Virus record (IMG/VR): IMGVR_UViG_3300020430_002305
Span: 1 to 26,842 of that record
DNA from: a virus
Length of the DNA stretch: 26,842 nt
Strand: one strand, 5' to 3'
The notes below the pieces were generated by a model. That model was not told the origin of the DNA. It saw only the letters and a program-made list of their open reading frames with translations, and did no database searches. The position numbers were made by a program, and so were the translations under genes. Each line of letters starts with the position of its first letter. Position 1 is the stretch's first letter. Of the stretch, positions 6,947-25,243 are shown in pieces.

Positions 6947-7098
6947 TTCCTTGCCGCCTCTATGGGATTTTTTAAGCCTTCGTAAGTGCAGTCAATAAAT
7001 TTAATATGTTTGCTTAATTTAATATTTAGATCTTCAACTGTTTTTTGTAACTTATCAATCTTATCTTGCAATTTTTTAATTTCTTTATCTTTTGCCAT
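6931..7098 (-). CDS. 55-residue coiled-coil protein
   Basis: The N-terminal half (KDKEIKKLQDKIDKLQKTVE) is a heptad-patterned, Lys/Glu-rich helix. The second half holds FIDCTYEGLKNPIEAARKW, ending in a basic helix. I do not recognise it. It heads the run leading through the 39-residue membrane protein to gene 44, with overlaps at each junction. A sigma70-like promoter (TAGACA, 17 bases, TAATAT) ends six bases before its ATG, so its mRNA would be leaderless. It may be a small early accessory factor for the clamp loader or for host takeover; that is inferred from position. Confidence 0.7.
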   Translation of the reverse strand: MAKDKEIKKLQDKIDKLQKTVEDLNIKLSKHIKFIDCTYEGLKNPIEAARKWLRK

Positions 7099-7102
7099 TG
7101 CA

Positions 7103-8140
7103 CTATATTATAGTATTTTCCAGCCATTGTCTATATAATTGTTCTTGTGCCATGTTTTTACCTTTGGCCTCTGTCTGTATGTCAAAATTTTCTCGGAAAC
7201 TCAATGCCCAGTCATTTACCTTTCGGTTTGGTAACAGGTCCGAGTGTGCTCTTAGTTTTTGTTTCTTGCAACCACGTTCCAGCAACATCTTGATGTCATG
7301 CATTTCTGTATGTGTTCTATCACCAAGATTTGCAACTGCCAAGTGTTCGTCTCTTGAATACGAATAGTGCATGGTAGGACGTTGTCCACGCCACGAGTCA
7401 ATAACACGTTTGACCCTGTCATCGTTTGCGTCGATGTATTCCTCGTCTCGTATCCAGTGGTGATGTATGTCCATCACCAATGCAAGGTCTTTCTCCAATT
7501 CTAAACTGGCATCTAATCCCCAACCCATCTCGTCGTTCTCGATCGTTATCAAGTTACGTGCTTCTTGAGATAATCTAGGCAAGGCCTTACGGATGCCATC
7601 AGGTCCTTGTTTGCCTGATATATGCACATTGATCTTACAACCATCTTGGAATGACTTGCCGAAACCCATCCAACGTGCCATGTCCGCATGGTACTCGAAT
7701 TCTTCTATGCTTCGCTCAACGATATCCGGATTTACACTTGACAGTACACAGAATTGTCCTGGATGGAAACTCACTTTGACACCAAGTCTTCTTGACATCT
7801 CACCAACGGGTGCAAACAATTTTTCACAGTGATCTTGTATGTGCGGCTGTTGCCACCAAGACTTCCAATCCTTCTCTGTGTATCCTTGCAACATCTCACT
7901 ACCAAGACGCACCATCCTACGTTCAGGGGGAAGTGTGCCAACACGTTCTAGCAATCTACGTGCCGCTGTTGCGTTGTGGTTCATGATGTCCCATTGTCTT
8001 TGTTCCGCTTCGTCCTTGTGTTCACGAAGCCAACGCATTGTTGTGGATCTTCCGTTGAGTTCTCGGTCCTTGGCATTTACTTTCATACCGCCAAATTCAG
8101 ATTCGTTGTTAAGCCATTTACAGCAGAAACCTATACGCAT
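7103..8140 (-). CDS. uvsE: UV damage endonuclease UvsE/UvdE
   Basis: The 345-residue product is a TIM-barrel UV-damage endonuclease that nicks DNA 5' of pyrimidine dimers, starting excision repair. Metal-site motifs are visible along the chain: HPGQF at 126-130, NVHISG at 171-176, ENDE at 201-204, DIHHHW at 224-229, His258 in MHYS, and AHSD at 298-301. The length and motif order fit the UvdE family, so it looks intact. A near-perfect sigma70 promoter (TTGACA, 16 bases, TAAAAT) ends five bases before the ATG at 8140, pointing to early, leaderless expression. Photodamage repair suits a phage of sunlit surface water. Confidence 0.96.
   Translation of the reverse strand: MRIGFCCKWLNNESEFGGMKVNAKDRELNGRSTTMRWLREHKDEAEQRQWDIMNHNATAARRLLERVGTLPPERRMVRLGSEMLQGYTEKDWKSWWQQPHIQDHCEKLFAPVGEMSRRLGVKVSFHPGQFCVLSSVNPDIVERSIEEFEYHADMARWMGFGKSFQDGCKINVHISGKQGPDGIRKALPRLSQEARNLITIENDEMGWGLDASLELEKDLALVMDIHHHWIRDEEYIDANDDRVKRVIDSWRGQRPTMHYSYSRDEHLAVANLGDRTHTEMHDIKMLLERGCKKQKLRAHSDLLPNRKVNDWALSFRENFDIQTEAKGKNMAQEQLYRQWLENTII
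7105..7133 (-). promoter_or_regulatory. sigma70-like promoter for the 55-residue gene
   Basis: TAGACA (7133-7128), a 17-base spacer and TAATAT (7110-7105) lie on the minus strand, the last base six before the ATG at 7098. A perfect TATAAT (7112-7107) overlaps it with a 15-base spacer. Either choice puts the start within about two bases of the ATG. Confidence 0.5.
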
Positions 8141-8145
8141 ATGTT

Positions 8146-8173
8146 ATTTTAACACATATAATTTTAGTGTCAA
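8146..8173 (-). promoter_or_regulatory. Strong sigma70-like promoter for uvsE
   Basis: TTGACA (8173-8168), a 16-base spacer and TAAAAT (8151-8146) read towards uvsE. The -35 box overlaps the stop codon of the ParB-like gene. The start is predicted at the uvsE ATG itself. Confidence 0.75.
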
Positions 8174-8553
8174 TCTTTATAAAAGGCCCATTGGCCAATT
8201 ATGTCACTGCACTTCAGTTTGAACCCGTACTCTCTGTCTATGTCACGTAAAATTTTATTTGCCTTAGCCATGCTCATTCCTATGTCTGCTGGTAATGGCA
8301 ATGCTTCAATCTCTTTTTCTTTCATTGCCTTTGCGGCCTGTACTCTATGCCATCCGTCTGTCAATAGATAATAGCCAGAATCTTTTATGGGTGTGACCAA
8401 TATGGGATCAAATGCCTCATTTTGTTTTTTAAGTTTGCTGATCCATTTTCTTTTTTCCTTGTTTAACGGACGCACTGCACCAAGGCCAAGTTCGGCCATT
8501 GTCACAAGTTTATCAATAGGAACAGATATCCTTTTGAATTTAATTTTTTTCAC
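8170..8553 (-). CDS. ParB-fold (ParB/sulfiredoxin-like) protein
   Basis: The product has 127 residues. The core at about 49-88 (DPILVTP, then DGWHR at 66-70, then a helix and EIEALPLP) matches the ParB/sulfiredoxin fold, where the G-x-H-R motif binds nucleotide. Phage members of this group act as nucleases or CTP/ATP-binding switches; which applies here is unknown. No helix-turn-helix partner domain is obvious, so a segregation role is unlikely. The start is a GTG at 8553, fused to the stop of the upstream gene as TAGTG, which argues for coupling. An ATG at 8499 is the alternative but would cut into the domain's lead-in. Confidence 0.78.
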   Translation of the reverse strand: MKKIKFKRISVPIDKLVTMAELGLGAVRPLNKEKRKWISKLKKQNEAFDPILVTPIKDSGYYLLTDGWHRVQAAKAMKEKEIEALPLPADIGMSMAKANKILRDIDREYGFKLKCSDIIGQWAFYKD

Positions 8554-8792
8554 TAACTTATGCCTTTGATTTTCTTATAGGCCTTGTGTAAAACATAAAA
8601 CCACACACCGTTTATAGTTGGTTCGATCAAGGCAACTGCTCCTGCCTCCCATAAACTGGCACCTGTCATGACACTTACAACTGTCATGGCGATGATAATG
8701 TGTCCGCAAGTGTATATTATTGCCAGTCCAAGGCTAGAACCTGCTAAAATTTTTTTGAATGCTCCTTGTATTCCTTGTGTAAACTCAGTCAT
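8553..8792 (-). CDS. Small membrane protein, DUF2061-like
   Basis: The 79-residue product has two hydrophobic segments at about 19-42 and 47-67, a Glu-Pro near the second segment (ALIEPTINGVWFYVLHKAYKKI), and a basic C-terminus. The pattern of a Glu in the second segment followed by a Tyr/His-rich end resembles DUF2061 membrane proteins, whose function is not known. It overlaps the GroES-like gene by eight bases and the ParB-fold gene by a TAGTG, so these three form one transcription unit. A pore or envelope role would be a guess. Confidence 0.65.
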   Translation of the reverse strand: MTEFTQGIQGAFKKILAGSSLGLAIIYTCGHIIIAMTVVSVMTGASLWEAGAVALIEPTINGVWFYVLHKAYKKIKGIS

Positions 8793-9228
8793 TGCCAGGT
8801 AATTTTGTCATCTGTTTCATGCCGCCGGTATTAATGTAACCTGCTTGTTTGGTGTTGAATTCAGGTTCGGTGTCTGATACAAGTAAAATATCATTCTCGT
8901 CAATCATTCTCACCTCAAGTTCGACACCTTCTTTCTTAACTTTGAATGCTCTGGACCAACGTCCATGAGCGACCATTAACCACTGTCCCACTTTTACATC
9001 ATCTTGTTGTTTTCCAACTGCATAAACTTTTGCCCAACGTGGGTGTATGCCTCCCTGTGTGCCATCATCGTCTAGCATGATAATACCTCCTTTGGATTTT
9101 GTCTCGCCAAAGTGCATGTGAGACACTAGCACTCTTTTCTTAAGAGGTGTTATATCGGTATCAACGGTGTACTGTTTACCACCATGTGATCCGAAACCTT
9201 TTGTTTGTAAGTCTTCTATCTGTCCCAT
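8785..9228 (-). CDS. GroES/gp31-like cochaperonin
   Basis: The product has 147 residues. The central region follows GroES closely in order: ITPLKKRVLV at 26-35, then GETKSKGGIIM at 41-51, equivalent to the GroES mobile loop that contacts GroEL, then VKVGQWLMV at 78-86 and DENDILLV. T4 uses gp31 in the same way to fold its major capsid protein with host GroEL. The protein has an N-terminal extension of about 25 residues and a C-terminal tail of about 25 residues beyond the fold. A consensus sigma70 promoter with two bases between start site and ATG suggests early, leaderless expression. Confidence 0.82.
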   Translation of the reverse strand: MGQIEDLQTKGFGSHGGKQYTVDTDITPLKKRVLVSHMHFGETKSKGGIIMLDDDGTQGGIHPRWAKVYAVGKQQDDVKVGQWLMVAHGRWSRAFKVKKEGVELEVRMIDENDILLVSDTEPEFNTKQAGYINTGGMKQMTKLPGND

Positions 9229-9236
9229 ATAGAAGT

Positions 9237-9265
9237 ATTATACGTGATTTACTCTATTCCGTCAA
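9237..9265 (-). promoter_or_regulatory. Strong sigma70-like promoter for the GroES-like gene
   Basis: TTGACG (9265-9260), a 17-base spacer and TATAAT (9242-9237) lie within the 3' end of the upstream gene. The predicted start is about two bases before the ATG at 9228, which has no Shine-Dalgarno sequence. Confidence 0.75.
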
Positions 9266-9671
9266 GAGCCGCGTCTATGCCTTTTTTGGCTGTGCTTTCT
9301 GTTTTCGGCTTGAAAGTTTCCACAGGTTTAGTCTCAACTTTTGGTGTGACTGCTTTTTGAGGAGTAGGTTTACTTGCAACAGGTGTCATTTTTTGCACTG
9401 TTTTTTTGACTTCTGTTTTAGGTGCCGGCATAGGTCTTGGCCTGCTTGGCGTGTCGTCTACCATGCCTTTTGGTTGTTCGTAATATTTTTTGATAACTTC
9501 TGATTTAGGCGTAGTGACTCTGCCGCCTGGGCCTAACACGTCACCTCTGGCATTGACGTTCATGTTACCAACTGCCTGCACTGATTCGTTTGCCGCTCTA
9601 AGTTTTTCTATGTCTACCATACGTCCTTGCATGGTTCTGTACATTCTTTTTCTGGGTGCTCTTGCTACCAT
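9249..9671 (-). CDS. Conserved marine phage protein with Pro/Lys/Thr-rich tail
   Basis: The product has 140 residues. The N-terminal half (about 1-75) is conserved-looking and basic, with RMYRTMQGRMVDIEKL and VLGPGGRV. The second half is a low-complexity tail of Pro, Lys, Thr and Val repeats, likely disordered, ending in a short helix (IDAALDGIE). I associate the N-terminal part with a conserved protein of marine T4-like phages but cannot name its job. A good Shine-Dalgarno sequence (AGGAG) lies seven bases before the ATG. A TATAAT sits just upstream at 9688-9683, with only a weak -35. Its 3' end carries the promoter of the GroES-like gene. Confidence 0.75.
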   Translation of the reverse strand: MVARAPRKRMYRTMQGRMVDIEKLRAANESVQAVGNMNVNARGDVLGPGGRVTTPKSEVIKKYYEQPKGMVDDTPSRPRPMPAPKTEVKKTVQKMTPVASKPTPQKAVTPKVETKPVETFKPKTESTAKKGIDAALDGIE

Positions 9672-9690
9672 AATATGCTCCTATTATACT

Positions 9691-10716
9691 TTACTTATGA
9701 TCTCGTTGATCACCTGGTCCTAGAATTTCTCCTGGCAGGTCGCCGTATACGATCAAAACACTTCTGGATTGACCACTGTCGTTTACAGCGGTGTGGGTGT
9801 GCTCTAATGTGTTGATAAGATATGGTCTATCTTTTGTTGGTAGCACACCTGCTTTACCAAGTTTGAAATAATTGTTCTCAAGGTCGCCTGTCAAAGGCCA
9901 ATAGAATTTTTTACAGCCACGAATAATTGGATATTTTTCTCTTTTGTAATGATCATCACGATGTAACATTAGGTTCTTATAAGGGTGTAGTGTCTGGAGA
10001 CTAATGCTTAAAATATTCCTGTAACCAACCTTGTCAATCAGCAGTTCTTTCAGCAGTGGTGCATCTCCCCAGTTTACTTCTAGGAACGGTAGATCAGATT
10101 TTCCTGGCGAATTTGTTTTTATATCCATGACTCCATTGAATGAACCTTTGATTTCACGCACACTTATCTTTTCAATTTCAGCAATGATTTTGTCGACCGG
10201 AGGAGTTTCTATATCTAGATGCTGGTATGGAGTGTAGTCTGAGTCTACCTTCCACCAGTGAGGACCATCTCCTGTTGCCATGTAGGTCTTAATACTTTCA
10301 GAAAAATTGTTTTTTAACACACACGGCCTGTCCACAGTGAATATGTACTTGTTACCGATATCTTTGCCAAAGTCTTCGTGATCTATTTCTGTGAAAACCC
10401 TGTCGAGCAAAGTGCCTAGATTCGTGTGTATCCATAATTTAATTACTCCACCTTCGTCCCACAATGCCGCCGCGGGTTGGTGCCGATTGCCTTTACCATC
10501 AGTGTATGTTCCTGTCCAAATTGCTTCTACAATGCTCTCGTTATTGATTTTGATATCTTTAATTTTTGTTTTCTGGCCGGAGTAAGGCAAATTAAGTTCA
10601 TACCACCCGTCATCTATTTCAAAATTTTGATCAAGTTCGAAATCTATCCTTTTGTTTGACAGGTCAAGCAAGAAATTTTCAGTAATAGGTTTTGTACTAT
10701 CTATAGATATTTTCAT
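9691..10716 (-). CDS. Large protein with C-terminal Fe(II)/2OG-oxygenase-like domain
   Basis: The product has 341 residues. The N-terminal 190 residues hold strand-rich sequence with WTGTYTDGKGNRHQ and TGDGPHWWKVD. The C-terminal part carries a possible iron site: HRDD (His252 and Asp254), a later His in TLEHTHTAVND (His306 or His308), and Arg319 in SRSVLIVYG. This spacing is that of aspartyl/asparaginyl beta-hydroxylase-type oxygenases. The substrate is unknown. Two domains of comparable size suggest the N-terminal half may bind the target. The ATG overlaps the stop of the polymerase-fragment gene as ATGA, so both are expressed together. The other oxygenase (5298-5891) is shorter and not closely alike. 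Confidence 0.72.
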   Translation of the reverse strand: MKISIDSTKPITENFLLDLSNKRIDFELDQNFEIDDGWYELNLPYSGQKTKIKDIKINNESIVEAIWTGTYTDGKGNRHQPAAALWDEGGVIKLWIHTNLGTLLDRVFTEIDHEDFGKDIGNKYIFTVDRPCVLKNNFSESIKTYMATGDGPHWWKVDSDYTPYQHLDIETPPVDKIIAEIEKISVREIKGSFNGVMDIKTNSPGKSDLPFLEVNWGDAPLLKELLIDKVGYRNILSISLQTLHPYKNLMLHRDDHYKREKYPIIRGCKKFYWPLTGDLENNYFKLGKAGVLPTKDRPYLINTLEHTHTAVNDSGQSRSVLIVYGDLPGEILGPGDQRDHK

Positions 10717-11234
10717 CTCAGGAATTCCTTAATATCTAAATTGTACAGCATTGGATTAATTTTGTGTACACCTATCAAGAACAAACAAAAACTAGCCACA
10801 CTAGATCCTCTTCCAACTCCCCACACTATGTTGTTTGCCCTTAGTGTGTCTACAAAAAATATTAGAAACTGTAAAACTTTTATAAAGTCTTTCTTTTCAA
10901 ACAGGTCATATTCTGACTGCACTCTCATTTTTTCTTCATCGTTTTGACACTTATCTAACAACCACTGTAAAACATTTATTTGATAGTACTTGTCTGGCAT
11001 GTGCCAGTTGTTGCAATTTTCCTTGTCAAACTCAATACAATTTACTCTTTTGGGGGCTTTGCTGATCACTGGCAGGTCTATGCCCAATTCTTTAAGACTT
11101 CCAGAATACTTTTCTATGTCGTCGAAGTACAGTCTGGATATATCGAAATCGGGTTGGGAGTATAGCAGTTCTATTGCGTCATCTTCCGAGAAAATTACAT
11201 CGCCGTGATCATTTATTTTTGTCTTTACCGCCAT
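10713..11234 (-). CDS. DNA polymerase III alpha (DnaE)-like fragment without catalytic aspartates
   Basis: The product has 173 residues. Residues about 105-173 line up with the bacterial DnaE segment that precedes the catalytic palm: SEYDLFEKKDF, then LFxxFVDTLRANNI-type helix sequence, then VGRGSSVASF (equivalent to the DnaE GRGSxAGSL box), then INPMLYNLDIKEFLR. The protein stops exactly where DnaE would continue to its Asp-x-Asp catalytic motif, so it cannot polymerise on its own. The PHP domain is also absent. It may be a repurposed DNA- or host-replisome-binding module. The ATG at 11234 lies 26 bases inside the upstream gene. Confidence 0.72.
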   Translation of the reverse strand: MAVKTKINDHGDVIFSEDDAIELLYSQPDFDISRLYFDDIEKYSGSLKELGIDLPVISKAPKRVNCIEFDKENCNNWHMPDKYYQINVLQWLLDKCQNDEEKMRVQSEYDLFEKKDFIKVLQFLIFFVDTLRANNIVWGVGRGSSVASFCLFLIGVHKINPMLYNLDIKEFLR

Positions 11235-11844
11235 CTAAAACCTTTGGTTGGAACTCAAACACTTTAGCATGATATTCGTGCTTCTCGTCAACCGGAATCT
11301 TTTTATTGTTCCAACTGAAATGCCCCGTGTAAATGCCCTTGTCAAGTTCTTCATCATATGTTGCCGTGTCCGGTCTTAACCACCATGGGTCAAACTTGGT
11401 ATATTTGCTTGAAAACCAGTCCGGTCTATCTAAAAGTATAAGCTCTTTACTGTCTTTGTCAACCGTGTAGGTAATACCATCGCCCTGCCATGAACTCAAT
11501 GCTATATTGTTGACAGTGATGGCGCTTTCCATAATGCTGTTTGCTTTACAGAAGCACACAGCGGCCATGATTTGATCATATGGAGGCTTTGGAAGTTCGA
11601 TGAATCTGTTGTTTGTGCTGTCTTTTAAAATAGTATAAAGTGGTTCATCTCGCCATGTGGTAATAGTATTAGCAAATATCTGCTCAAACAGACTTTTTAG
11701 TCTATCGAAATATTGCGTCTGTTCTTTCAGATCGGCTGTGTGAGGTGTGATCGAAACATTTAAATTGTATTCGTTTGGGAACAATTCTCCATCAACAATT
11801 ATAATTGATTTGAATTTGGTTTTCCAAGTGAAAGTGTTTGACAT
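11209..11844 (-). CDS. Conserved hypothetical protein
   Basis: The product has 211 residues. It begins with strands (FKSIIIVDGELFPNEYNLNV), continues with a helix (DRLKSLFEQIFANTI), and later has an aromatic-rich stretch (FDPWWLRPDTATYDE) followed by GIYTGHFSWNNKK. The WW and Tyr-rich region looks like a conserved surface. I do not recognise a named family. I chose the ATG at 11844; the frame can be extended two codons to a TTG. A Shine-Dalgarno sequence is weak. It overlaps the DnaE-like gene by 26 bases, suggesting the pair is co-translated and may work together. Confidence 0.7.
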   Translation of the reverse strand: MSNTFTWKTKFKSIIIVDGELFPNEYNLNVSITPHTADLKEQTQYFDRLKSLFEQIFANTITTWRDEPLYTILKDSTNNRFIELPKPPYDQIMAAVCFCKANSIMESAITVNNIALSSWQGDGITYTVDKDSKELILLDRPDWFSSKYTKFDPWWLRPDTATYDEELDKGIYTGHFSWNNKKIPVDEKHEYHAKVFEFQPKVLDGGKDKNK

Positions 11845-11856
11845 TAACAATACTTA

Positions 11857-12111
11857 CTAGTCAATGTTGATCAGCTCTCCGATATCTGGCTCGTTCCTTA
11901 ACTTTTTATTTTTCTTGTGCCACTCTTCGATTCTTCTTTCTCTGATGGCATTCCTGTAGGTGTTAAGGGCGTGTGTAAGTTGTGCCAACATATCTGGATT
12001 GCGACCAAACCTTCTAGCACTTGCAACTTTTCGAGAAAGTTCTTTGATCCTTTTCGATATTTCCTCATCGGACATGTTGCCTATTTCTTCTTGTAATGGA
12101 TGGAAGTACAT
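11857..12111 (-). CDS. Small helical conserved phage protein
   Basis: The 84-residue product is almost entirely helical and highly charged: MSDEEISKRIKELSRKV, then basic RRFGRNPD, then a helix with many Arg (NTYRNAIRERRIEEWHKKNKK), ending in an acidic tail. It looks like a small dimerising coiled-coil protein of a type conserved in marine T4-like phages; I cannot name a function. It has the best Shine-Dalgarno sequence in this part (AAAGGAGG, five bases before the ATG), suggesting high expression. It follows the small fibre-like gene by 16 bases. Confidence 0.75.
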   Translation of the reverse strand: MYFHPLQEEIGNMSDEEISKRIKELSRKVASARRFGRNPDMLAQLTHALNTYRNAIRERRIEEWHKKNKKLRNEPDIGELINID

Positions 12112-12127
12112 GTGCCTCCTTTAAAGA

Positions 12128-12688
12128 TTAAGTGTACTGTTTACCTAGTTGGTGCATCAAGACAGTTGTTCCACCATCTGGTGACATAAACTCGTACATC
12201 ACACGTCCCAGACCTGGTTGAACAGTATCTGACGTACCGTCACTACCGTTTACATTGTCTGCTTTGATTGTTGCACTTGGAAAAATTAAATTTGTTGCTG
12301 TTGGACTTACAGTGAGGTCCAATATTATCCTACCTAAGCCGCCTGATGGAAAGTTCCTATATTCAAAAGTCGTATCTGCTGTCACTGTTGCAGTTTGGTA
12401 ATGTCCGTTGGCGTGATTCAAAATTATTGATCCAGATGATACTGAACCGTGGCCATAAACAGTTTCAGAATTGTTCTTCAGTTGGGCCTTTTGTACCTCG
12501 TTGTTGTTGAAGTCATTGGCCGCATTTAAGTTGGCCTTGTTAGCCTGCAGGCTTGTTATTTCGGTTGCCGCTTCCGTAAAATTGTCTTTTATGGCAGAGA
12601 AATTATCTCTCATGCCTTGCGAACTGTTGTCCTGTCCTGCCTTAGGATATGTTCCGTCAACGTTTCCTGGTACTATATTACTTGCCAT
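12128..12688 (-). CDS. Tail-fibre-like or decoration protein
   Basis: The 186-residue product has an N-terminus with QDNSSQGMRDNFSAIKDNF, a variant of the DGxGDxLRxAxxKIxxNFxE motif that opens the four paralogous fibre proteins upstream. A heptad-like helix (EITSLQANKANLNAANDFNN) and a strand-rich Gly/Ser/Thr domain ending in TVLMHQLGKQYT follow. This layout, an N-terminal attachment helix with a beta-rich body, fits phage fibre or virion decoration proteins. The ATG is coupled to the stop of the 833-residue gene as TAATG, with AAAGGA eight bases upstream. A GATAAATA late box lies 30 bases upstream, inside the preceding gene. Confidence 0.78.
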   Translation of the reverse strand: MASNIVPGNVDGTYPKAGQDNSSQGMRDNFSAIKDNFTEAATEITSLQANKANLNAANDFNNNEVQKAQLKNNSETVYGHGSVSSGSIILNHANGHYQTATVTADTTFEYRNFPSGGLGRIILDLTVSPTATNLIFPSATIKADNVNGSDGTSDTVQPGLGRVMYEFMSPDGGTTVLMHQLGKQYT

Positions 12689-15189: not shown

Positions 15190-15209
15190 TACTTTACTCC
15201 TTACATGGG

Positions 15210-15217
15210 TATTTATT
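15210..15217 (-). promoter_or_regulatory. T4-type late promoter (AATAAATA)
   Basis: The box lies 20 bases before the ATG at 15189, leaving room for the Shine-Dalgarno sequence AAGGAG. It sits in the short gap after the 52-residue gene. Confidence 0.7.
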
Positions 15218-15222
15218 GGCGA

Positions 15223-15381
15223 TTACCGACTATTATTCTGTGTACGAATCCAGTGTTCTAGGTGCTGTTTTAGGCCTTCACGCAGTATCGGATCTCTTTC
15301 CCTTTTGATCGCTTCTTGCAGTCGTGCTATCTCAGATTTTGGAGACCTATACCTTTTACGGTCGTTGTGATATTTCCTCAT
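15223..15381 (-). CDS. 52-residue basic helical protein
   Basis: This short frame encodes a strongly basic start (MRKYHNDRKRYRSPKSEI) followed by one long amphipathic helix (RLQEAIKRERDPILREGLKQ) and a short tail. AAAGGA lies five bases before the ATG. The frame fills a 230-base gap between two fibre-region genes, and its stop is just before the next late promoter, so it looks real despite its size. No family is recognised. It could be a small assembly factor for the surrounding fibre genes; that is inferred from position only. Its ribosome site sits in a small hairpin. Confidence 0.65.
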   Translation of the reverse strand: MRKYHNDRKRYRSPKSEIARLQEAIKRERDPILREGLKQHLEHWIRTQNNSR

Positions 15382-15386
15382 TATTT

Positions 15387-15400
15387 TCCTTTGCGAAGGA
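15387..15400 (-). promoter_or_regulatory. Hairpin covering the ribosome site of the 52-residue gene
   Basis: On the minus-strand RNA, UCCUU (15400-15396) pairs with AAGGA (15391-15387) across a 4-base loop. The 3' arm is the Shine-Dalgarno sequence of the ATG at 15381. Folding would hide the site. The stem is only five pairs. Confidence 0.4.
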
Positions 15401-15418
15401 TTACTTTTTTATTGTCTA

Positions 15419-17041: not shown

Positions 17042-17068
17042 ACTTGCTTATATCCTTGTTGATGTTGT

Positions 17069-17076
17069 TATTTATC
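17069..17076 (-). promoter_or_regulatory. T4-type late promoter (GATAAATA)
   Basis: The box lies 27 bases before the ATG at 17041, in the 62-base gap after the next upstream fibre gene. A weak AAGGA follows it. Confidence 0.6.
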
Positions 17077-17103
17077 GTTAATTCTATAAACCGAATGTAA
17101 TTA

Positions 17104-18075: not shown

Positions 18076-18076
18076 G

Positions 18077-19060
18077 TTATACCTTAATTGGTCTCCTCAC
18101 AAATTTTATTACCTGGTTGTTATCGTTATTTACTTGACCTAGCAGTCTAACATTACCGCTGTTTATGTCTGCGGATATGTCAAGTGTGTCGTAGGTAGAT
18201 GAACCATCTCCCGCTCCATTGTCCACACCGCCAAACACACTGACGTATGCGTTGGTACCGTCATGTGTCACGTTCGCTTCTATCAATCTGAACCTGTTGT
18301 CTGTGCTGTCTGATATCTGGAGATGATATTTTGCACTCCTGAACATTGAAACCGCAAATGAGTCTATTGCCTGCACCGCAGATGACGATCCTGATATGGT
18401 TGCTGTACCATCAGTAAACTCTGCTAGTTCTAACAATATATCTGGTCGAAAAAATGACAGTTGACCATTTCCATTTGTTTGTAATACTCTATTTCCGATA
18501 GCATCACTAGTGGGAAACTTGATGCCACTGAACGATACCGTGCCTGTTCCTAAACCGGTTAGTTCTAAATCGGAGTTGGTGGCGGTGGTTGAAATGGTGT
18601 TATCTGTGATTGTTATTCCATCTATTGAACTTGACCCTGTCGCAGTCACAGTCGTGAAGGCACCCGTTGAAGCCGTACTTGATCCTATAGTTGTGGCATC
18701 AACTGTGCCATCATCTAGGTCTAATTTTGAAATTGCTACCGAACCTGTGCCGTTTGCTGTTATTACCAGGTCAGCATTTGATGTGTTGACCTTGATGTCG
18801 TTGTCCGATATGTTTACAGTTGAGTCTATTGTGATCTCAGATGCTGTGACTGTGCCTGTGCCACTGGCACTTAACTCTAAGTTATCATTAGATCTTGTTG
18901 CTTTCACCACGTTGCCAGAGAACTCCAAGCCAGGCAAAGTGAGGTGTGGCCTTGCATAGACCTCCGTGAAGTTGTTATTGATCTTTACTCCGGCTCCCCT
19001 AATAGTGTCGCCTGTGCCGTCATCGGCCTGTATTCCAATATTGATTATTTCCTGTGCCAT
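18077..19060 (-). CDS. Repeat-rich tail-fibre-like protein with RSAKY-type tip (paralogue)
   Basis: The product has 327 residues. Its architecture matches the downstream gene: attachment motif (INIGIQADDGTGDTIRGAGV, then KINNNFTEVY), shaft repeats (DNDIKVNTSNADLVITANGT and DNTISTTATNSDLELTGLGT), and a C-terminal domain starting with FRSAKYHLQISDSTDNRFRL and including EANVTHDGTNAYVSVFG. The two tips are clearly homologous but differ in loops, suggesting divergence after duplication. No clear Shine-Dalgarno sequence is present (GTGAG next to the ATG is weak). It follows the short fibre gene by 18 bases and probably shares its late transcript. Confidence 0.82.
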   Translation of the reverse strand: MAQEIINIGIQADDGTGDTIRGAGVKINNNFTEVYARPHLTLPGLEFSGNVVKATRSNDNLELSASGTGTVTASEITIDSTVNISDNDIKVNTSNADLVITANGTGSVAISKLDLDDGTVDATTIGSSTASTGAFTTVTATGSSSIDGITITDNTISTTATNSDLELTGLGTGTVSFSGIKFPTSDAIGNRVLQTNGNGQLSFFRPDILLELAEFTDGTATISGSSSAVQAIDSFAVSMFRSAKYHLQISDSTDNRFRLIEANVTHDGTNAYVSVFGGVDNGAGDGSSTYDTLDISADINSGNVRLLGQVNNDNNQVIKFVRRPIKV

Positions 19061-19078
19061 CTCACACTCTACCTTTTA

Positions 19079-19567
19079 TTATAGACTGACTTTAACCGTA
19101 GCACCATCTCTGTACAATCTGCCTGCCACTCCTGGGTCTGACGTTGGAAGTGCTGTGAAGTCTATCTGTGCGCCTGTTACTTTTAAATTTCCATTTACAT
19201 CAACCGCTTCTGCTATTGATATTTTCGTTGAGTCATCTGAACTAATTGTAGTGCCATTTACTTTAAGAGCACCCACAATAATGTTTCCTGATCCGTTGGC
19301 ACTCAATGTTAAGTCACTGTTTGTTGCGATTGGTGTAATTGCCGCGTTATTGATTTGTAATTGATCTATTTCAACAACACCTGCACCGTTTGGTTGAACC
19401 TTTATGTTGCCGTTTGTAACACTTGTTGTCAACAATCCTGTGTCACCGTCACCGACCAACGAGTAAACTTCTTCGAAATTCGTGTTGATCTTCGTCATGG
19501 CCGTACGTAAAGTATCGCCTGTCGCCGGGTTTCCTACTGCTCCTGTGTCTATGTTTAATCTAGCCAT
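19079..19567 (-). CDS. Short tail-fibre-like protein with DPGVAG tip
   Basis: The 162-residue product has the attachment motif (LNIDTGAVGNPATGDTLRTA, then MTKINTNFEEVY), about two shaft repeats (NAAITPIATNSDLTLSANGS) and the tip module ending in LPTSDPGVAGRLYRDGATVK. The stretch from about residue 105 to the end closely matches parts of the 540-residue protein, also at DNA level near the 3' ends (19081-19160 and 15421-15490). This points to duplication or recombination. I chose the ATG at 19567; five more residues are possible upstream but run into the promoter. The late box AATAAATA lies 14 bases upstream, and no Shine-Dalgarno sequence is seen. Confidence 0.82.
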   Translation of the reverse strand: MARLNIDTGAVGNPATGDTLRTAMTKINTNFEEVYSLVGDGDTGLLTTSVTNGNIKVQPNGAGVVEIDQLQINNAAITPIATNSDLTLSANGSGNIIVGALKVNGTTISSDDSTKISIAEAVDVNGNLKVTGAQIDFTALPTSDPGVAGRLYRDGATVKVSL

Positions 19568-19581
19568 ATATCGAATATACA

Positions 19582-19589
19582 TATTTATT
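19582..19589 (-). promoter_or_regulatory. T4-type late promoter (AATAAATA), divergent pair
   Basis: The box reads left, 14 bases before the ATG at 19567. It shares three bases with an ATTAAATA box on the other strand, so two divergent late promoters overlap here. Confidence 0.65.
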
Positions 19590-19594
19590 AAATA
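19587..19594 (+). promoter_or_regulatory. Late-type promoter (ATTAAATA), divergent pair
   Basis: The box reads right, six bases before the ATG at 19601. The same ATTAAATA variant, five bases from an ATG, occurs on the minus strand at 25243-25236, which supports it as a functional variant. Confidence 0.55.
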
Positions 19595-19600
19595 ATATTG

Positions 19601-19879
19601 ATGTTTGTCGAAACATTAAAAACTATGAGACTGTATGAACGCCAGAGTAAATGTGGCGTTTACCACACCTTCCACAGGAAAAATACTGTATTCGTGTTCA
19701 AATGTGATTCATGCGGAGTGCAATTCCTGAGACCGAGAGCGAAAGTGGATCCTGAAAGGGCCACCAATGATTACAAGCATGTCTGTTCGTGTTGTGACAC
19801 CAAGAGATTCGCACAAAAGGTGGGTGTAAAAATGCGTAAGGTCTACAAACTGGACGCGAGTAGCACACTTACTTTATAA
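19601..19879 (+). CDS. Zinc-ribbon-like protein on the plus strand
   Basis: The product has 92 residues. Two Cys knuckles, CDSC (35-38) and CSCC (62-65), are separated by 23 residues in a basic sequence (RPRAKVDPERATNDY), as in a zinc ribbon or a degenerate HNH-type fold. The strand-rich start (KCGVYHTFHRKNTVFVFK) supports a compact domain. It probably binds nucleic acid. It is one of few plus-strand genes and has its own late-type promoter. The ATG at 19601 is six bases from that box; a second ATG at 19625 (MRLYERQSK) is a good alternative and may be the conserved start. It ends against the convergent GNGESR gene with a six-base overlap. Confidence 0.8.
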   Translation: MFVETLKTMRLYERQSKCGVYHTFHRKNTVFVFKCDSCGVQFLRPRAKVDPERATNDYKHVCSCCDTKRFAQKVGVKMRKVYKLDASSTLTL

Positions 19880-20617
19880 ATTTCTCCACTTGATATCGTC
19901 CCTGTGTCCTTCTATCCATCTCTGCAGGTCAGCGTATATGCCGCATTTGATGTTGGGTTGATCGAAGTACCATCGCAGGTAAGGGTTGCCTTCCAGATAT
20001 TCTCTCCTGTTTATGAAATGGAAGTTTGTGCCTGGAAACTGCCTAAAGGTCTGCCTAAGTTGGTACATCCATTCGTATTTTAGGTATGCCTTCATGCTTT
20101 CTCTTCCGGGATAGTTGTTTGAGTCTTTGTATATGTTGTTTTGAATCCTGCTTGGGTTTTCCATTTCCCACTGCCTTGCACCCATTATGTCAAAAGACAG
20201 AATCACAATGTTCTTTATTCCAGATTCAGCCGCCATGAGGACTGCGGAACATCCTGATCCTCTGTTTTTGCTGAAATCGTTTGTTTTTATTGCACCACCT
20301 TTTTTGATATCACCACCTCTCCATACTCTGTATATCTTTAACCCCTCTGGAACATCTGTGTCTTTATCGCCATCACATATGTAGTTCCAACCACTTATGT
20401 CTTGAACACCGTGTATACGTGGTGACTCTTTTCCGTTGTTGTGCCATCTGGCCAGTTCTTCATACATCGGCGGATTTACTGCCACGATGTGGTCACACAG
20501 ATTTGGATGATCCCTGTATATGGCGTTGCAACCATATATCACACCTTTGCCTTTTAAGTTTTCTATTGGAAATATATTTCTCGACTCACCGTTGCCTATT
20601 ACAAAAGCAGTGTCCAT
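19874..20617 (-). CDS. GNGESR-motif protein, possible sugar-nucleotide or glycosyltransferase fold
   Basis: The product has 247 residues. It opens with a Rossmann-like strand and loop, VIGNGESR at 6-13, followed by YGCNAIYRD at 28-36 and a later strand (IKNIVILSFDIMG). The GNGxS loop near the N-terminus followed by CN-x-IYRD resembles the start of DUF115 and sialyltransferase-like (GT42) proteins. That is inferred from motif, not an established match. A second protein with the same opening lies at 24595-25230. I chose the ATG at 20617, which overlaps the stop of the Fe-S carrier gene (TAATG). The C-terminal part is aromatic and basic (RREYLEGNPYLRWYFD). Confidence 0.68.
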   Translation of the reverse strand: MDTAFVIGNGESRNIFPIENLKGKGVIYGCNAIYRDHPNLCDHIVAVNPPMYEELARWHNNGKESPRIHGVQDISGWNYICDGDKDTDVPEGLKIYRVWRGGDIKKGGAIKTNDFSKNRGSGCSAVLMAAESGIKNIVILSFDIMGARQWEMENPSRIQNNIYKDSNNYPGRESMKAYLKYEWMYQLRQTFRQFPGTNFHFINRREYLEGNPYLRWYFDQPNIKCGIYADLQRWIEGHRDDIKWRNL

Positions 20618-20970
20618 TACACCCCAAATGATTCTCCACAACCACAACCAGAAGATGCGTTAGGATTTGTTATTTCAAACTGTGAACCAAATACCTCTTC
20701 CTTCCAGTCTATCTTGGTGCCTGCAACGTAGAGCATACTTGCGTCGTCAACAACAAACTTGCCGGTGTGCCAATCCTCTGTGTGATCGTCTGCACCCACA
20801 TCTTCCTTTTTGTCTATGAATCCCCACTTGTATTTGAATCCTGCACAGCCGCCACCTTCGACCATTAGGCTGACTGCATATTTGTCTGGCTGTTTAGCCA
20901 ACAACTTCTCCATTTGATTCTTTGCTTCTTCTGTGATTTCAAACCACTTGTGATTTTCAAACTCTTGCAT
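20617..20970 (-). CDS. A-type iron-sulfur carrier (HesB/IscA/ErpA family)
   Basis: The product has 117 residues, a single Fe-S biogenesis domain. The three cluster-binding Cys are all present: Cys42 in GGGCAGFKY, and Cys109 and Cys111 in SSGCGCGESF. Family members pass Fe-S clusters to target enzymes; phage copies are commonly found in marine T4-like phages. Compared with bacterial homologues it has a slightly longer N-terminal helix and an acidic insert (DVGADDHTEDWH). Possible clients cannot be named from the window. A GATAAT lies seven bases before the ATG, with only a weak -35. It is coupled to the GNGESR gene downstream. Confidence 0.93.
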   Translation of the reverse strand: MQEFENHKWFEITEEAKNQMEKLLAKQPDKYAVSLMVEGGGCAGFKYKWGFIDKKEDVGADDHTEDWHTGKFVVDDASMLYVAGTKIDWKEEVFGSQFEITNPNASSGCGCGESFGV

Positions 20971-20978
20971 ACAGTTAA

Positions 20979-21293
20979 TTATCTATTCCCCTCCCCCATG
21001 TTACTAACTCCGATCGCTAACCAGAATTTTGTTGCATCTCTTTTGTATTGGAAACTCATGTAACTGTCTTGATCCTCCCAGTTATGGTGGTATGGGTTGT
21101 CCGATTCCGGTCCTTCGAACCACCAACCCCATTTACCCTCGCAATTGACCTGGCACCATTCTATGCATTCACCATTGATTCCGTTTGAATTCATGTCCAC
21201 GTTGAACCTGAATTTTTTTTCATATCCACAATCTTCTGGAATGTCTTCCAATCCGGGATTTATCTTTTTAATTTTTACTTTGCCGTAAGTCAT
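20979..21293 (-). CDS. Conserved hypothetical protein with Cys-rich centre
   Basis: The product has 104 residues. An N-terminal strand-rich part (YGKVKIKKINPGLEDIPEDC) leads to a central segment with three Cys (GECIEWCQVNCEGKWGWWF), then HHNWEDQDSYMSF, and a final helix and strand with DATKFWLAIGV. The clustered Cys and aromatics suggest a small metal-binding or disulfide-stabilised domain. I know of no function. The ATG at 21293 overlaps the stop of the glycosyltransferase gene as ATGA, with GAGGA nine bases upstream. The frame could be extended 11 residues further, but that start lies inside the upstream gene. Confidence 0.72.
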   Translation of the reverse strand: MTYGKVKIKKINPGLEDIPEDCGYEKKFRFNVDMNSNGINGECIEWCQVNCEGKWGWWFEGPESDNPYHHNWEDQDSYMSFQYKRDATKFWLAIGVSNMGEGNR

Positions 21294-21988
21294 CTCCAGT
21301 TTTCCTCCACAAACTTGTCCGCACATTCCATTGGGTTGGGTGAACCATGGAACACTGCCACCTTGTTGTCTTTTGCTATTTTTGGAGGTGTACGGAAAAA
21401 TTTCCTACCATCCTTTGTTAGTAGTTTTGTGTCCTTTAAACCTACCATTTCCCATTTGTAGGATCTTATCCAAGAGTCCGGCCACCAATTGATGTCATTC
21501 CTTGCCTTTTTGGTTATCCAGTCTTGGTCTCCATGATTTTGTTGCATGACTTCTGCTGACTTATTCTTGAATTCATTCCAGAGATAATTCATTGTTCCCG
21601 ACTGCCAACGCATACAACTGGAGTTTGACAGTTTCCAATCGTTTACCCTGCATCTGTTAAAGTCTCTAATGATCATAAACTTGCCAGGATTGTACGTGAA
21701 CAACTCGTCTATATTATCAAAAATTACAACGTCGAGGTCGAAGAAAAGTATGTTGCCCTGTACAGGCATTTCAGGTGCAAACATCCATAGTTTGCTCCAC
21801 CAAGTTTTGATATATGGATCTGTTGGCAGTTTAATAACATTGATATCTGAATCAATTCCTGCAGGATCGTCTGTCAGGCAATGAAACTGCAAAGGAACTG
21901 TTGTGTGCCTCTTGACCATACTGTGCAGTACATTGGCGTATCGAGATGTATACTTGTTGCCCCACTTAACGCACATTACGTGATTCAT
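21290..21988 (-). CDS. GT-A-type glycosyltransferase-like protein (GT8-like)
   Basis: The product has 232 residues. The fold resembles GT-A glycosyltransferases: an N-terminal strand, FHCLTDDP at 35-42, KTWWSKLWMF at 61-70, then the metal-binding DxD motif in FFDLDVV (Asp84 and Asp86), a typical gp/GT8 feature, and a late His in VAVFHGSPNP. It should transfer a sugar from a nucleotide donor; donor and acceptor are unknown. Phages use such enzymes on virion proteins, DNA bases or host surface sugars. A strong Shine-Dalgarno sequence (GGAGAGG) lies just before the ATG, and it overlaps the upstream gene by 23 bases. Confidence 0.78.
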   Translation of the reverse strand: MNHVMCVKWGNKYTSRYANVLHSMVKRHTTVPLQFHCLTDDPAGIDSDINVIKLPTDPYIKTWWSKLWMFAPEMPVQGNILFFDLDVVIFDNIDELFTYNPGKFMIIRDFNRCRVNDWKLSNSSCMRWQSGTMNYLWNEFKNKSAEVMQQNHGDQDWITKKARNDINWWPDSWIRSYKWEMVGLKDTKLLTKDGRKFFRTPPKIAKDNKVAVFHGSPNPMECADKFVEENWR

Positions 21989-23093
21989 AACCTCTCCTCA
22001 GTCCTTCCATTTGTATTTGTTTCCAATCATCGCTGTCCAATGTGTAAGGGAAATTATTTTCCACAACTTCTTTACTTCTCACGGCCATGTTCCTTATATT
22101 TAAATTATCTTTCATGATCTCGTAAATGCCAGTGAATTGACGATTCTGAAAAGATGTCTCTAAATCTACCTGTCCTATCTTGATATAGCCTAGGGAAAGT
22201 TTTGGATCTTCCCAGTCATATTTGTTTTCTTTAAGCCATGACCTAAAACCATCCATTTCCTCTTTCTTAAAGTCGTGTGTGTCCTCTGTTATAGTGTCTC
22301 CCCATTCAATGTCAAACTCACCCGAATAATATTTCTGGTGGTTGATGGCGGAACACAATGCGTCGGTCATTTTAGGTGCATGTTCGTCTCTGTAAACTTC
22401 GTACAAGGTTTTGCCTACCTGAGACCAGTGCAAGTACACACCACCCAACTCCCTATCGTATCTGTTTTCCTTAAACAAGTTGTAATCTTCTTCATGTAAA
22501 TCATATCTAGGTGCATTCAGGAAAGTGGTGATTTGTGATGGTCTTATCCACTCTGGTTCGATGAACTTTTTTCTGTATGCCTCTACCCAACTTTCGATCT
22601 CGTGGCATATGTTGTTCAACTGCCTAATTGCATATTTGGTATCATGGTCTGCTTGTTTGTAATATTCAGAAAGTTGCCAAGCCGTGCCCTGCAGATCCTC
22701 AAAATACCTGTGCAACAGGTTGCAGGCCTCATGTTTTAATCTCAGTCCTGGTGTCTTGTTGACATCTCCGTTAATAGCCTTTCCTATGGGTAGTCTTCCA
22801 CTGTATTGAAAATCGTCAGCAACAAATGGATCTATTCTTTCGTAGGGAGGATCAAACTCGAATGAATTTATTTGTTCAATGCTTCTGTTCAACTCACGGC
22901 ACAGAAAATTCAAATCCCTTTTGGAATCGGCCCAACCCAAGAAACAGAAGTTTTTTTCCAGGACCTTTTTGTTTACTAGGTTTTCTTTAAGTGCTTCTAT
23001 GAATCTTTTGCCAAGCGGGGTATCATAGACATCGATCTTGACTTTCTTGTAGTCGTAATCAATAATGATTTTATCCTCTAGTATAGATGGCAC
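21966..23093 (-). CDS. Large conserved hypothetical protein of the glycan/QueD block
   Basis: The product has 375 residues from a GTG start. It is rich in acidic and aromatic residues, with a helical middle (KHEACNLLHRYFEDLQGTAW) and later GGVYLHWSQVGKTLYEV and EFDIEWGDTITEDTHDF. I recognise no catalytic motif. I chose the GTG at 23093 because GGAG lies six bases upstream; no ATG is available, and the longest frame begins at a TTG at 23132. It overlaps the QueD-like gene by 23 bases and the glycosyltransferase by 23 bases, so these are one translation unit. Proteins of this kind appear in marine T4-like phages; that is recollection. Confidence 0.72.
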   Translation of the reverse strand: MPSILEDKIIIDYDYKKVKIDVYDTPLGKRFIEALKENLVNKKVLEKNFCFLGWADSKRDLNFLCRELNRSIEQINSFEFDPPYERIDPFVADDFQYSGRLPIGKAINGDVNKTPGLRLKHEACNLLHRYFEDLQGTAWQLSEYYKQADHDTKYAIRQLNNICHEIESWVEAYRKKFIEPEWIRPSQITTFLNAPRYDLHEEDYNLFKENRYDRELGGVYLHWSQVGKTLYEVYRDEHAPKMTDALCSAINHQKYYSGEFDIEWGDTITEDTHDFKKEEMDGFRSWLKENKYDWEDPKLSLGYIKIGQVDLETSFQNRQFTGIYEIMKDNLNIRNMAVRSKEVVENNFPYTLDSDDWKQIQMEGLRRGYESRNVR

Positions 23094-23520
23094 TGTTTGC
23101 TCCGTGTTCCATACATTCAACACTGACCACAAAACATCTATTGTTGGTTTCTGCCCTGATCATGCTGTCTGCAAAATCAAAAGCATGTTTGGCGAACATT
23201 TCAGCACCAACTCCATCCATTATCGTTAGACTTGCAAGATCCATTTCTTCCAATTCTTTGAACTTGTCTATGTGAGGATCATTTCTGTCAAGTACAAGTT
23301 TATGATCAAAACTGTTCTCTAACCATTTTTTCAATGGCTTGAGTGATCCAAAGTCCACTGCCCAGTTTTTGTTGTCAAGATCTTTACATCCAAATGTGAA
23401 TTTGAAAGCAAGACTGTATCCATGCAACAAGTGACAGTGGGAATGATCCGCATTGGGTTGTCTGAACACCGCCGATAGTCCTATGTTGTGTCCGTATGTT
23501 TTAGTTGAGTAGTAAGTCAT
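23071..23520 (-). CDS. 6-pyruvoyltetrahydropterin synthase/QueD-like protein with altered zinc site
   Basis: The 149-residue product has the tunnel-fold (T-fold) layout of QueD and PTPS: SAVFRQ at 16-21, CHLLHGYSL at 29-37, VDFGSLKPL at 55-63, FDHKLVLDRND at 71-81 and an end with ECMEHGANSAIY. Catalytic positions known from E. coli QueD appear kept: Cys29, Asp72/His73 and Glu138. Two of the three zinc His do not: the first (AAH) is Phe19 and the last (HGH) is Tyr35; nearby His26, 28 and 30 might replace them. QueD makes the precursor of queuosine and 7-deazaguanines. AAAGGAG lies five bases before the ATG. No other pathway gene is present. Confidence 0.8.
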   Translation of the reverse strand: MTYYSTKTYGHNIGLSAVFRQPNADHSHCHLLHGYSLAFKFTFGCKDLDNKNWAVDFGSLKPLKKWLENSFDHKLVLDRNDPHIDKFKELEEMDLASLTIMDGVGAEMFAKHAFDFADSMIRAETNNRCFVVSVECMEHGANSAIYTRG

Positions 23521-23550
23521 CTTTTCTCCTTTTTTTGATGACTTGCAGAG

Positions 23551-23558
23551 TGTTTATA
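23551..23558 (-). promoter_or_regulatory. Possible late-type promoter (TATAAACA)
   Basis: TATAAACA differs from T4 TATAAATA at one base and lies 30 bases before the QueD-like ATG, in the 70-base gap, with AAAGGAG between. It might instead be a -10 box. Confidence 0.35.
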
Positions 23559-23590
23559 GAGGGATGAAAGTCTTTGAGTCCTCTTGATCA

Positions 23591-23845
23591 TCAGTTCAAT
23601 TTTTTATTCATCTTATGATCTAGTTCCATCTGAAAGGCTACATCTCTGATCCGATCAGTCAGTTCGTTTGGTATATTTAATTCACCATCGATTATACTTT
23701 TTAAAAAGTGTATCATGACCGTGAATTCTCCCCTTTTTGAAACAGTCTCAGGATCGATACCGTGTTCCTCCATTGCATTGAGCATGGCTTCAGAAACGTC
23801 AACCAGTGCCTTTATGCTTATTGAATGTTTATCAAAATGTTTCAT
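23591..23845 (-). CDS. Small helical hypothetical protein
   Basis: The 84-residue product looks all helical: KALVDVSEAMLNAMEEHG, then GEFTVMIHFLKSIIDGEL, then TDRIRDVAFQMELDHKM, ending in a basic tail (KMNKKLN). There is no Cys, signal or membrane segment. I recognise no family. The ATG overlaps the stop of the Sm-like gene as TAATG and has no Shine-Dalgarno sequence, so it is expected to be made only by coupling to that gene, from its strong early promoter. A partner role to the Sm-like protein is plausible but unproved. Confidence 0.68.
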   Translation of the reverse strand: MKHFDKHSISIKALVDVSEAMLNAMEEHGIDPETVSKRGEFTVMIHFLKSIIDGELNIPNELTDRIRDVAFQMELDHKMNKKLN

Positions 23846-24150
23846 TAAGTTATAATACTGGGTTTCTTAGGCACTTCAATTTTGCTGAAAACTCTATTGT
23901 ATTCATTGGATATCTTGTCATTGATATGTGCTATTGAGGTTAATTTATCTATCGCTATATTGAAAGGCTCGTCCTGTTTGGCAGTGGAGAAAAATGTACC
24001 AAATGCAAGTCCTTGTGGACCTTGCATCAATACAAGTGCCTTTTCTATGCTTATGTATGTGTCAGCCTTACCTGTGTATTTTGCTATGACTTCTTCTCCG
24101 GAAGCCAATTTTAAAGTAATGACGTCTCCAATTTTTATTTTATCAAACAT
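23845..24150 (-). CDS. Sm-like-fold small protein
   Basis: The product has 101 residues. The first 60 residues read as a five-stranded Sm-like barrel: IGDVITLKLASGEEVIAKY, TGKADTYISIE, KALVLMQGPQG. The rest is a short helix and tail ending in KPSIIT. Sm-like (Hfq/LSm) proteins bind RNA or form small rings, so a role in RNA handling is possible but inferred. Similar proteins are conserved in marine T4-like phages, from memory. A perfect sigma70 consensus promoter (TTGACA, 16 bases, TATAAT) ends six bases before the ATG, placing the transcription start on the ATG itself. Strong early expression is expected. Confidence 0.7.
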   Translation of the reverse strand: MFDKIKIGDVITLKLASGEEVIAKYTGKADTYISIEKALVLMQGPQGLAFGTFFSTAKQDEPFNIAIDKLTSIAHINDKISNEYNRVFSKIEVPKKPSIIT

Positions 24151-24156
24151 ACCCTT

Positions 24157-24184
24157 ATTATAAACTATACTAAGATTTTGTCAA
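24157..24184 (-). promoter_or_regulatory. Perfect sigma70 consensus promoter for the Sm-like gene
   Basis: TTGACA (24184-24179), a 16-base spacer and TATAAT (24162-24157) lie on the minus strand, within the 3' end of the glycosylase gene. The predicted start falls on the A of the ATG at 24150. Confidence 0.8.
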
Positions 24185-24575
24185 TGTATTTCTTCAACTC
24201 TTTGTCTTGCACGTTGTCTGGTATGTTGTTAAAGAAAAAAATTTGGTAACTGTCAGAACCATATTTGCCGATCCCGTGCAGATCACTTGCTTCTTTTCTG
24301 TCCCAAGTCAGGTACTGTTCTGTCATCTTTCTAATCCTTTTTGAACGTACCTCCCACATACCCAAGGGTTTTAGCATCTGTTGTTGCGTTTTCAATCTGC
24401 CACGTAGGTACGCTTCGGGACTGGGATAACGTGCGAACAGTTTTGGTAAGATTATTTTCACGTGTTTCCTATAGGTGAGATTAAGGCACATCACGGCCAC
24501 CATGTGTTTCCATCTCTTATGTGGAGACTTCAGTTGTTCCTGTACCATAAGATTTTCTAACATGGGTTTGATCAT
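24165..24575 (-). CDS. HhH-GPD DNA glycosylase, MBD4-like
   Basis: The product has 136 residues. It resembles the glycosylase domain of eukaryotic MBD4, which removes thymine or uracil opposite guanine. Matching segments are FARYPSPEAY at 48-56, MLKPLGMWEVRSKRIRKM at 67-84, YLTWD at 88-92, the helix-hairpin-helix loop LHGIGKYGSDSYQIF at 99-113, and QDKELKKY at 123-130. Asp124 aligns with the catalytic Asp560 of human MBD4, and Tyr105 with Tyr540. No methyl-CpG-binding or other domain is attached. A strong leaderless-type promoter stands before the ATG. It should act with uvsE in genome repair or on modified cytosines. Confidence 0.85.
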   Translation of the reverse strand: MIKPMLENLMVQEQLKSPHKRWKHMVAVMCLNLTYRKHVKIILPKLFARYPSPEAYLRGRLKTQQQMLKPLGMWEVRSKRIRKMTEQYLTWDRKEASDLHGIGKYGSDSYQIFFFNNIPDNVQDKELKKYIDKILV

Positions 24576-24581
24576 ATAGTA

Positions 24582-24609
24582 ATTTTATATGAGATTACTT
24601 CTTTGTCAA
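24582..24609 (-). promoter_or_regulatory. Strong sigma70-like promoter for the DNA glycosylase
   Basis: TTGACA (24609-24604), a 16-base spacer and TAAAAT (24587-24582) match the uvsE promoter in both boxes and spacing. The predicted start is the A of the ATG at 24575. Confidence 0.75.
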
Positions 24610-25235: not shown

Positions 25236-25243
25236 TATTTAAT
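25236..25243 (-). promoter_or_regulatory. Late-type promoter (ATTAAATA)
   Basis: The box lies five bases before the ATG at 25230, like the AATAAATA box at 5904-5897. The same variant occurs on the plus strand at 19587-19594. Confidence 0.5.

Follow-up and report, generated by a model that had tools for sequence, protein, structure and literature searches.

The virus fragment analysed here, IMG/VR record IMGVR_UViG_3300020430_002305 (26,842 bp over its full length, called the window below), carries promoters placed directly before the start codons of a number of its genes. These are very probably real promoters fused to start codons and giving predicted leaderless mRNAs, and two promoter classes appear to be used in this way, sigma70-type and T4-type late. 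An origin of the promoter-ATG arrangement by chance is unlikely; that explanation was ruled out by conservation in homologs, by shuffled sequences and by a de novo profile of ATG offsets.

The window has a GC content of 40%, and its predicted genes lie on the minus strand. Protein matches put it among T4-type large myoviruses: the clamp loader shares 53% identity with its counterpart in Pseudomonas phage PA5oct, matches to PHROG families include a baseplate protein and a tail-fibre connector, and the Pfam domains UvdE, Cpn10 and HhH-GPD were found. For comparison, 344 related loci were fetched for their homologous upstream regions, which were then made non-redundant. Start codons in homologs were set by homology to the window genes plus a small search for nearby starts, and a promoter was counted when a site of at least 10/12 lay within 60 nucleotides (nt) upstream, with shuffled upstreams as controls. 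A strict 37-nt pattern allowing 3 mismatches was too loose and uninformative.

An earlier note on this DNA had reported five near-consensus sigma70 promoters ending 5, 6 or 8 bases before an ATG, mostly in front of genes lacking a Shine-Dalgarno sequence (SD) and packed into the 3' ends of preceding genes. All five hexamer pairs were found in the sequence where it had placed them, with measured distances from the end of the -10 box to the ATG of 6, 6, 5, 8 and 6 nt for the Sm-like, glycosylase, uvsE, GroES-like and 55-residue (aa) genes. The promoters are located inside or overlapping the 3' ends of the preceding genes; SD motifs are absent, and the AAGGG before the Sm-like gene stands too near the ATG to serve as one. 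These features, together with a gene at the window edge, are as follows.

24157..24184, minus strand: promoter of the Sm-like gene, sigma70-type (TTGACA-16-TATAAT), 6 nt ahead of ATG 24150, its -35 box within the 3' end of the glycosylase gene
23845..24150, minus strand: Sm-like gene, 101 aa, predicted leaderless (named so in the earlier note; no Pfam match)
24582..24609, minus strand: promoter of the glycosylase gene, sigma70-type (TTGACA-16-TAAAAT), 6 nt ahead of ATG 24575
24165..24575, minus strand: HhH-GPD (MBD4-like) DNA glycosylase gene, predicted leaderless (Pfam HhH-GPD E=6e-4, under the gathering score)
8146..8173, minus strand: promoter of uvsE, sigma70-type (TTGACA-16-TAAAAT), 5 nt ahead of ATG 8140
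7103..8140, minus strand: uvsE/UvdE UV-endonuclease gene, predicted leaderless (Pfam UvdE 3e-30)
9237..9265, minus strand: promoter of the GroES-like gene, sigma70-type (TTGACG-17-TATAAT), 8 nt ahead of ATG 9228, predicted leader about 2 nt
8785..9228, minus strand: gene for a GroES-like (Cpn10) protein, predicted to be leaderless or almost leaderless (Pfam Cpn10 8e-7)
7105..7133, minus strand: promoter of the 55-aa gene, weak (TAGACA-17-TAATAT), inside the uvsE 3' end and 6 nt ahead of ATG 7098
6931..7098, minus strand: 55-aa gene
26303..26842, minus strand: 3'-5' exonuclease-like gene, ATG at the window edge (its homolog L373:18520-19053 matches the exonuclease family phrog_255 and Pfam PF16473)

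Of the five window sites that score 11/12 or better, four are followed by an ATG at offset 5-8, where 0.5 would be expected. Matches of 9/12 counted over the whole window came to a total near the shuffled expectation, with no clear excess, and therefore the case must rest on relatives.

In those relatives, the abutting promoter is mostly retained. Among non-redundant homologs, it was found at 5-8 nt in 53/53 Sm-like genes, at 5-7 nt in 69/71 glycosylase genes (exactly 6 in 65), at 5-7 nt in 70/89 uvsE genes and at 5-9 nt in 50/57 GroES-like genes, and TTGACA-16/17-TATAAT stands at 5-6 nt in 52/69 homologs of the edge exonuclease-like gene; shuffled upstreams of these five families have such a site in 0-4% of cases. 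Sites beyond the abutting range were almost absent from the 60 nt examined upstream in homologs. The promoter of the 55-aa gene, with a score of 9/12, is weak alone, but most of its homologs retain TAGACA, together with a hexamer resembling a -10 box 6 nt upstream of the ATG. At the four strong sites, the hexamers are 93-100% identical in homologs, compared with 73-80% for spacer and flank (hexamers vs flank, Sm-like 1.00 vs 0.80, glycosylase 0.98 vs 0.76, GroES-like 0.95 vs 0.79), so that a -35 and a -10 hexamer at 16-18 bp spacing are conserved above background, as in sigma70 promoters. Most other window sites of at least 10/12 have no such excess of hexamer identity in homologs, the exceptions being a coding site at 11462-11435 (0.94 vs 0.87) and an edge site at 35-8 with 4 homologs only.

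The uvsE family further indicates that promoter and start codon move together. Its start codon shifts by 0, 6, 9 or 12 nt between homologs, many of which start 2-4 codons farther upstream, and the promoter shifts equally; the distance to each gene's own ATG is 5-7 in nearly all, whereas measured to the aligned residue it varies between 5 and 19, bar two outliers. An unconserved promoter-to-ATG distance in relatives, which the earlier note had named as grounds for giving up its proposal, was thus looked for and not encountered, since almost every promoter-bearing homolog has a distance of 5-9 nt.

The same offset emerged from a de novo profile that used no gene calls. The loci together contain 255 non-redundant sites that score 11/12 or better, and an ATG follows at offset 5-8 in 130 of them (28, 80, 16 and 6 at offsets 5, 6, 7 and 8), compared with about 7 per offset farther downstream (binomial P ~3e-54, sites taken as independent). 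At the mode, offset 6, the canonical +1 coincides exactly with the A of the AUG. For the GroES-like genes, mostly at distances of 8-9, the base 7 past the -10 box is A in 96%, which would mean a leader of 2-3 nt. Furthermore, TTGACA-N16-18-TANNAT sites abut an ATG in 42/109 cases in the group, vs 39/386 in 17 other phages. Genes abutted by sigma70-type promoters include those for primase, clamp loader, dNMP kinase and an exonuclease.

The start-abutting architecture that had been claimed for early genes was found there, yet it is not limited to them: abutment of start codons is equally frequent among T4-type late promoters. In the window, the late core lies 5-9 nt before five genes, and a variant core was seen at similar distances.

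25236..25241, minus strand: late-promoter core TAAATA, 5 nt ahead of the ATG that opens gene 24595-25230; distance 5 in 67/78 homologs
5897..5902, minus strand: late-promoter core (AATAAATACTATT-ATG), 5 nt ahead of the ATG that opens gene 5298-5891; distance 5 in 3/3 homologs
4693..4698, minus strand: late-promoter core, 9 nt ahead of the ATG that opens gene 4207-4683; distance 6-9 in 33/33 homologs
3019..3024, minus strand: late-promoter core, 8 nt ahead of the ATG that opens gene 2537-3010; distance 5-8 in 21/22 homologs
2092..2097, minus strand: late-promoter core (AATAAATACTACTATT-ATG), 8 nt ahead of the ATG that opens gene 1649-2083; distance 8 in 6/7 homologs
11851..11856, minus strand: variant core TAAGTA, 6 nt before ATG 11844; TAAATA at distance 5-6 in 26/63 homologs
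3494..3499, minus strand: variant core TAAGTA, 7 nt ahead of the ATG that opens gene 3022-3486

In longer relatives, 102/202 NATAAATA sites have, 4-9 nt downstream, the ATG of an open reading frame of at least 40 aa, vs 7/132 in control phages, and six of those seven control cases belong to Pelagibacter phage HTVC008M. Late-abutted genes include those for tail tube, baseplate and head proteins, and the division of gene classes between the two promoter types fits expectation. Thus an ATAAATA core stands upstream of virion genes, and a gp55-like late sigma factor is encoded in the relatives G001 (196 kb; E=1.7e-86) and G002, the window itself being a fragment; both are traits of T4-type late promoters. 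An SD-bearing leader between core and start, as in T4, was absent from the abutting class and present in a second class with the core at 12-34 nt. The TAAGTA variant was also observed 6-7 nt before starts in many homologs (families g11209, g3480 and g3022), which suggests a relaxed late-promoter consensus.

Where a promoter abuts the start, the Shine-Dalgarno sequence is mostly gone. An SD match of at least 4 nt was found at 2% of sigma70-abutted starts and 9% of late-abutted starts, vs 70% of those with a late core at 12-34 nt and 53% of the others. The exchange is visible within single families: in uvsE, 8/19 members without an abutting promoter have an SD vs 0/70 with one (P=1e-6), in the exonuclease family of gene 26303 the counts are 8/17 vs 0/52 (P=3e-6), and in the family of gene 24595 they are 7/11 vs 1/67 (P=1e-6). 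Within families, an abutting promoter and a Shine-Dalgarno sequence substitute for each other.

A model is proposed in which the host sigma70-type RNA polymerase would recognize TTGACA-16/17-TATAAT and start about 7 bases past the -10 box, on the A of the AUG or within three bases of it, so that a leaderless mRNA would result, to be initiated at its 5'-terminal AUG by the host ribosome with no need of a Shine-Dalgarno sequence. The T4-type late promoters (ATAAATA), read by the gp55-like late sigma, would likewise give leaderless mRNAs for virion genes, while the remaining genes, inside transcription units or with a late promoter 12-34 nt upstream, would mostly retain their Shine-Dalgarno sequences.

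Several points weigh against this model. The leaderless state is deduced from geometry and comparative genetics, as are the 5' ends themselves, and the 7-nt start rule is an E. coli-like one that was assumed and may not be that of the host. In the P values, related sequences were treated as independent after an identity filter only. Leadered sigma70 transcripts probably exist too, as a near-consensus promoter, TTGACACATTC...GCTATAATTTGGAAYCC, is conserved in several relatives with no ATG at offset 5-8 and may represent a leadered exception or an RNA gene; it was located at the following positions.

G009:29450-29477: TTGACACATTC..GCTATAATTTGGAAYCC promoter with no abutting ATG
G010:32678-32705: the same
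G011:46425-46452: the same
G012:4449-4476: the same

Moreover, the genes could be read from polycistronic mRNAs begun upstream, in which case an SD-less start would need coupling. Taken further, this becomes an explanation in which the promoters are real and act as secondary boosters, with the genes translated mainly from such longer mRNAs. With the genes crowded together on a single strand and intrinsic terminators no commoner than in shuffles, read-through is likely to some extent; yet boosters could take any position in the upstream gene, which leaves unexplained the fixed promoter-ATG distance, and the loss of the Shine-Dalgarno sequence exactly at promoter-abutted starts is not explained either, and the explanation appears improbable. 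The temporal class, like the initiation by host ribosomes at a 5' AUG, is likewise a prediction, the "early" class being assigned from sigma70-type promoters together with replication or metabolism functions.

Compaction of the genome was considered as a source of the pattern, since gaps are short and would push promoters near the next start, and TAAATA includes a stop codon that naturally precedes starts; indeed, overlap of a late core with the stop codon upstream is common. However, the compact genomes of T4, S-PM2, PA5oct and Phosso are without the late pattern, the distances peak sharply at 5-8, the window promoters already lie inside upstream genes and would be free to lie farther off, and the uvsE distance is retained when the start moves, which makes such an artefact very hard to credit. 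AT-rich initiation regions lacking an SD are a known alternative to the Shine-Dalgarno sequence, so that the conserved AT-rich block might be a translation signal, an unstructured, S1-binding AU-rich region, instead of a promoter. This seems the least probable of all, because TTGACA and TATAAT are both conserved at 16-17 nt spacing while the spacer drifts, and because two different promoter consensuses occur, one for replication genes and the other for virion genes.

Beyond the group, abutment of the late core was found in Pelagibacter myophages. Whole-record counts of late-core matches against a reversed-pattern control were far above the control in group records and in excess in HTVC008M (17/3) and Mosig EXVC030M (13/4), with no excess in T4 (5/8), PA5oct (14/17), S-PM2 (4/6) or P-SSM2 (7/11). 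These two Pelagibacter phages, both assigned to Kyanoviridae, are alike in late-core abutment and differ in that sigma70-type abutment is not enriched in them (1/10 each). Annotated starts of HTVC008M (L412) with a TAAATA core 5-6 nt before them are listed by strand.

6280, 7562, 11972, 18943, 19456, 24712 and 31132, plus strand: annotated starts
18916 and 16007, minus strand: annotated starts

No earlier report of late-core abutment in SAR11 myophages was found in the literature searched. A trait of all T4-type phages was ruled out, as T4, S-PM2, P-SSM2, PA5oct, Atu_ph07, S-TIM54 and phiM12 are without the pattern; a trait of all alphaproteobacterial phages is unsupported, with no clear excess in Sinorhizobium phage phiM12, in Phosso or in Agrobacterium phage Atu_ph07. 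The T4 late promoters (TATAAATA, gp55/gp33/gp45) share the ATAAATA core, a gp55-like sigma (here in a close relative) and virion genes downstream, but in T4 the core lies well upstream of SD-bearing starts, with 39 matches at spacing 19-30 vs 5 at 4-9.

In phage lambda, PRM places the +1 of cI on the AUG. The cI transcript is cited as a leaderless mRNA (PMC9031893), and it differs in being one gene as against a lineage-wide architecture. Leaderless genes of Deinococcus-Thermus with a -10 box adjacent to the reading frame (PMC12340547) and TA-led bacterial genes (PMC3160421) are alike in having the -10 element about 10-12 bp before the start codon, no SD and a predicted 5'-AUG mRNA. They are cellular, however, with weak dependence on other elements in Deinococcus, whereas the present group consists of phages with near-consensus -35 and -10 boxes and a second, phage-type promoter class. 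The Thermus phage phiYS40 has many leaderless middle and late mRNAs (PMC3594737); its host is thermophilic and belongs to a phylum rich in leaderless genes, while the group here is mostly marine T4-type phages with both sigma70-type and gp55-type promoters involved.

Some further observations were made in the window and its relatives. The relative L382 (G004:5900-17130) has a dense one-strand run of TTGACA...TATTAT/TAATAT promoters, possibly an early region, in which offset 6 often holds ATA and not ATG. Phage tRNAs were checked, and no initiator tRNA was among them. Window genes 19874-20647 and 24595-25230 are apparently a paralogous pair with the common motif GNGESR...GCNAIYRD, the latter having no Pfam match. 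The same glycosylase gene is shared by contigs L413 and L414 (Rickettsiales metagenome-assembled genome MED657) and L415-L418, which sit in assembled genomes of conflicting taxa (Rickettsiales, Actinomarina, Neomarinimicrobiota and Euryarchaeota), likely a binning artefact.

Leaderless mRNAs as such are already known; what appears new is their predicted systematic use at two promoter classes in one T4-type phage lineage, with evolutionary exchange against the Shine-Dalgarno sequence. It is conceivable, though doubtful as yet, that the host sigma70 and phage gp55-type systems converged on start-codon-fused promoters in one lineage, with SAR11 myophages sharing the late half, because the phages or their hosts favour leaderless initiation in infection; altered initiation factors, which have been proposed for phiYS40, could be one cause. 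In that case, leaderless translation would be a general expression strategy of an abundant marine phage group, one that standard prediction of promoters and gene starts would tend to miss. Methods developed for cyanophages failed to predict late promoters in pelagimyophages (PMC7029224), and abutment may account for those missed; the arrangement also offers a simple rule to correct the annotation of start codons and promoters. Promoter and start codon are predicted to evolve as a single unit, in which the promoter is swappable for a Shine-Dalgarno sequence, and an abundant uncultured, mostly marine T4-like phage group is predicted to bypass the Shine-Dalgarno step for many genes.

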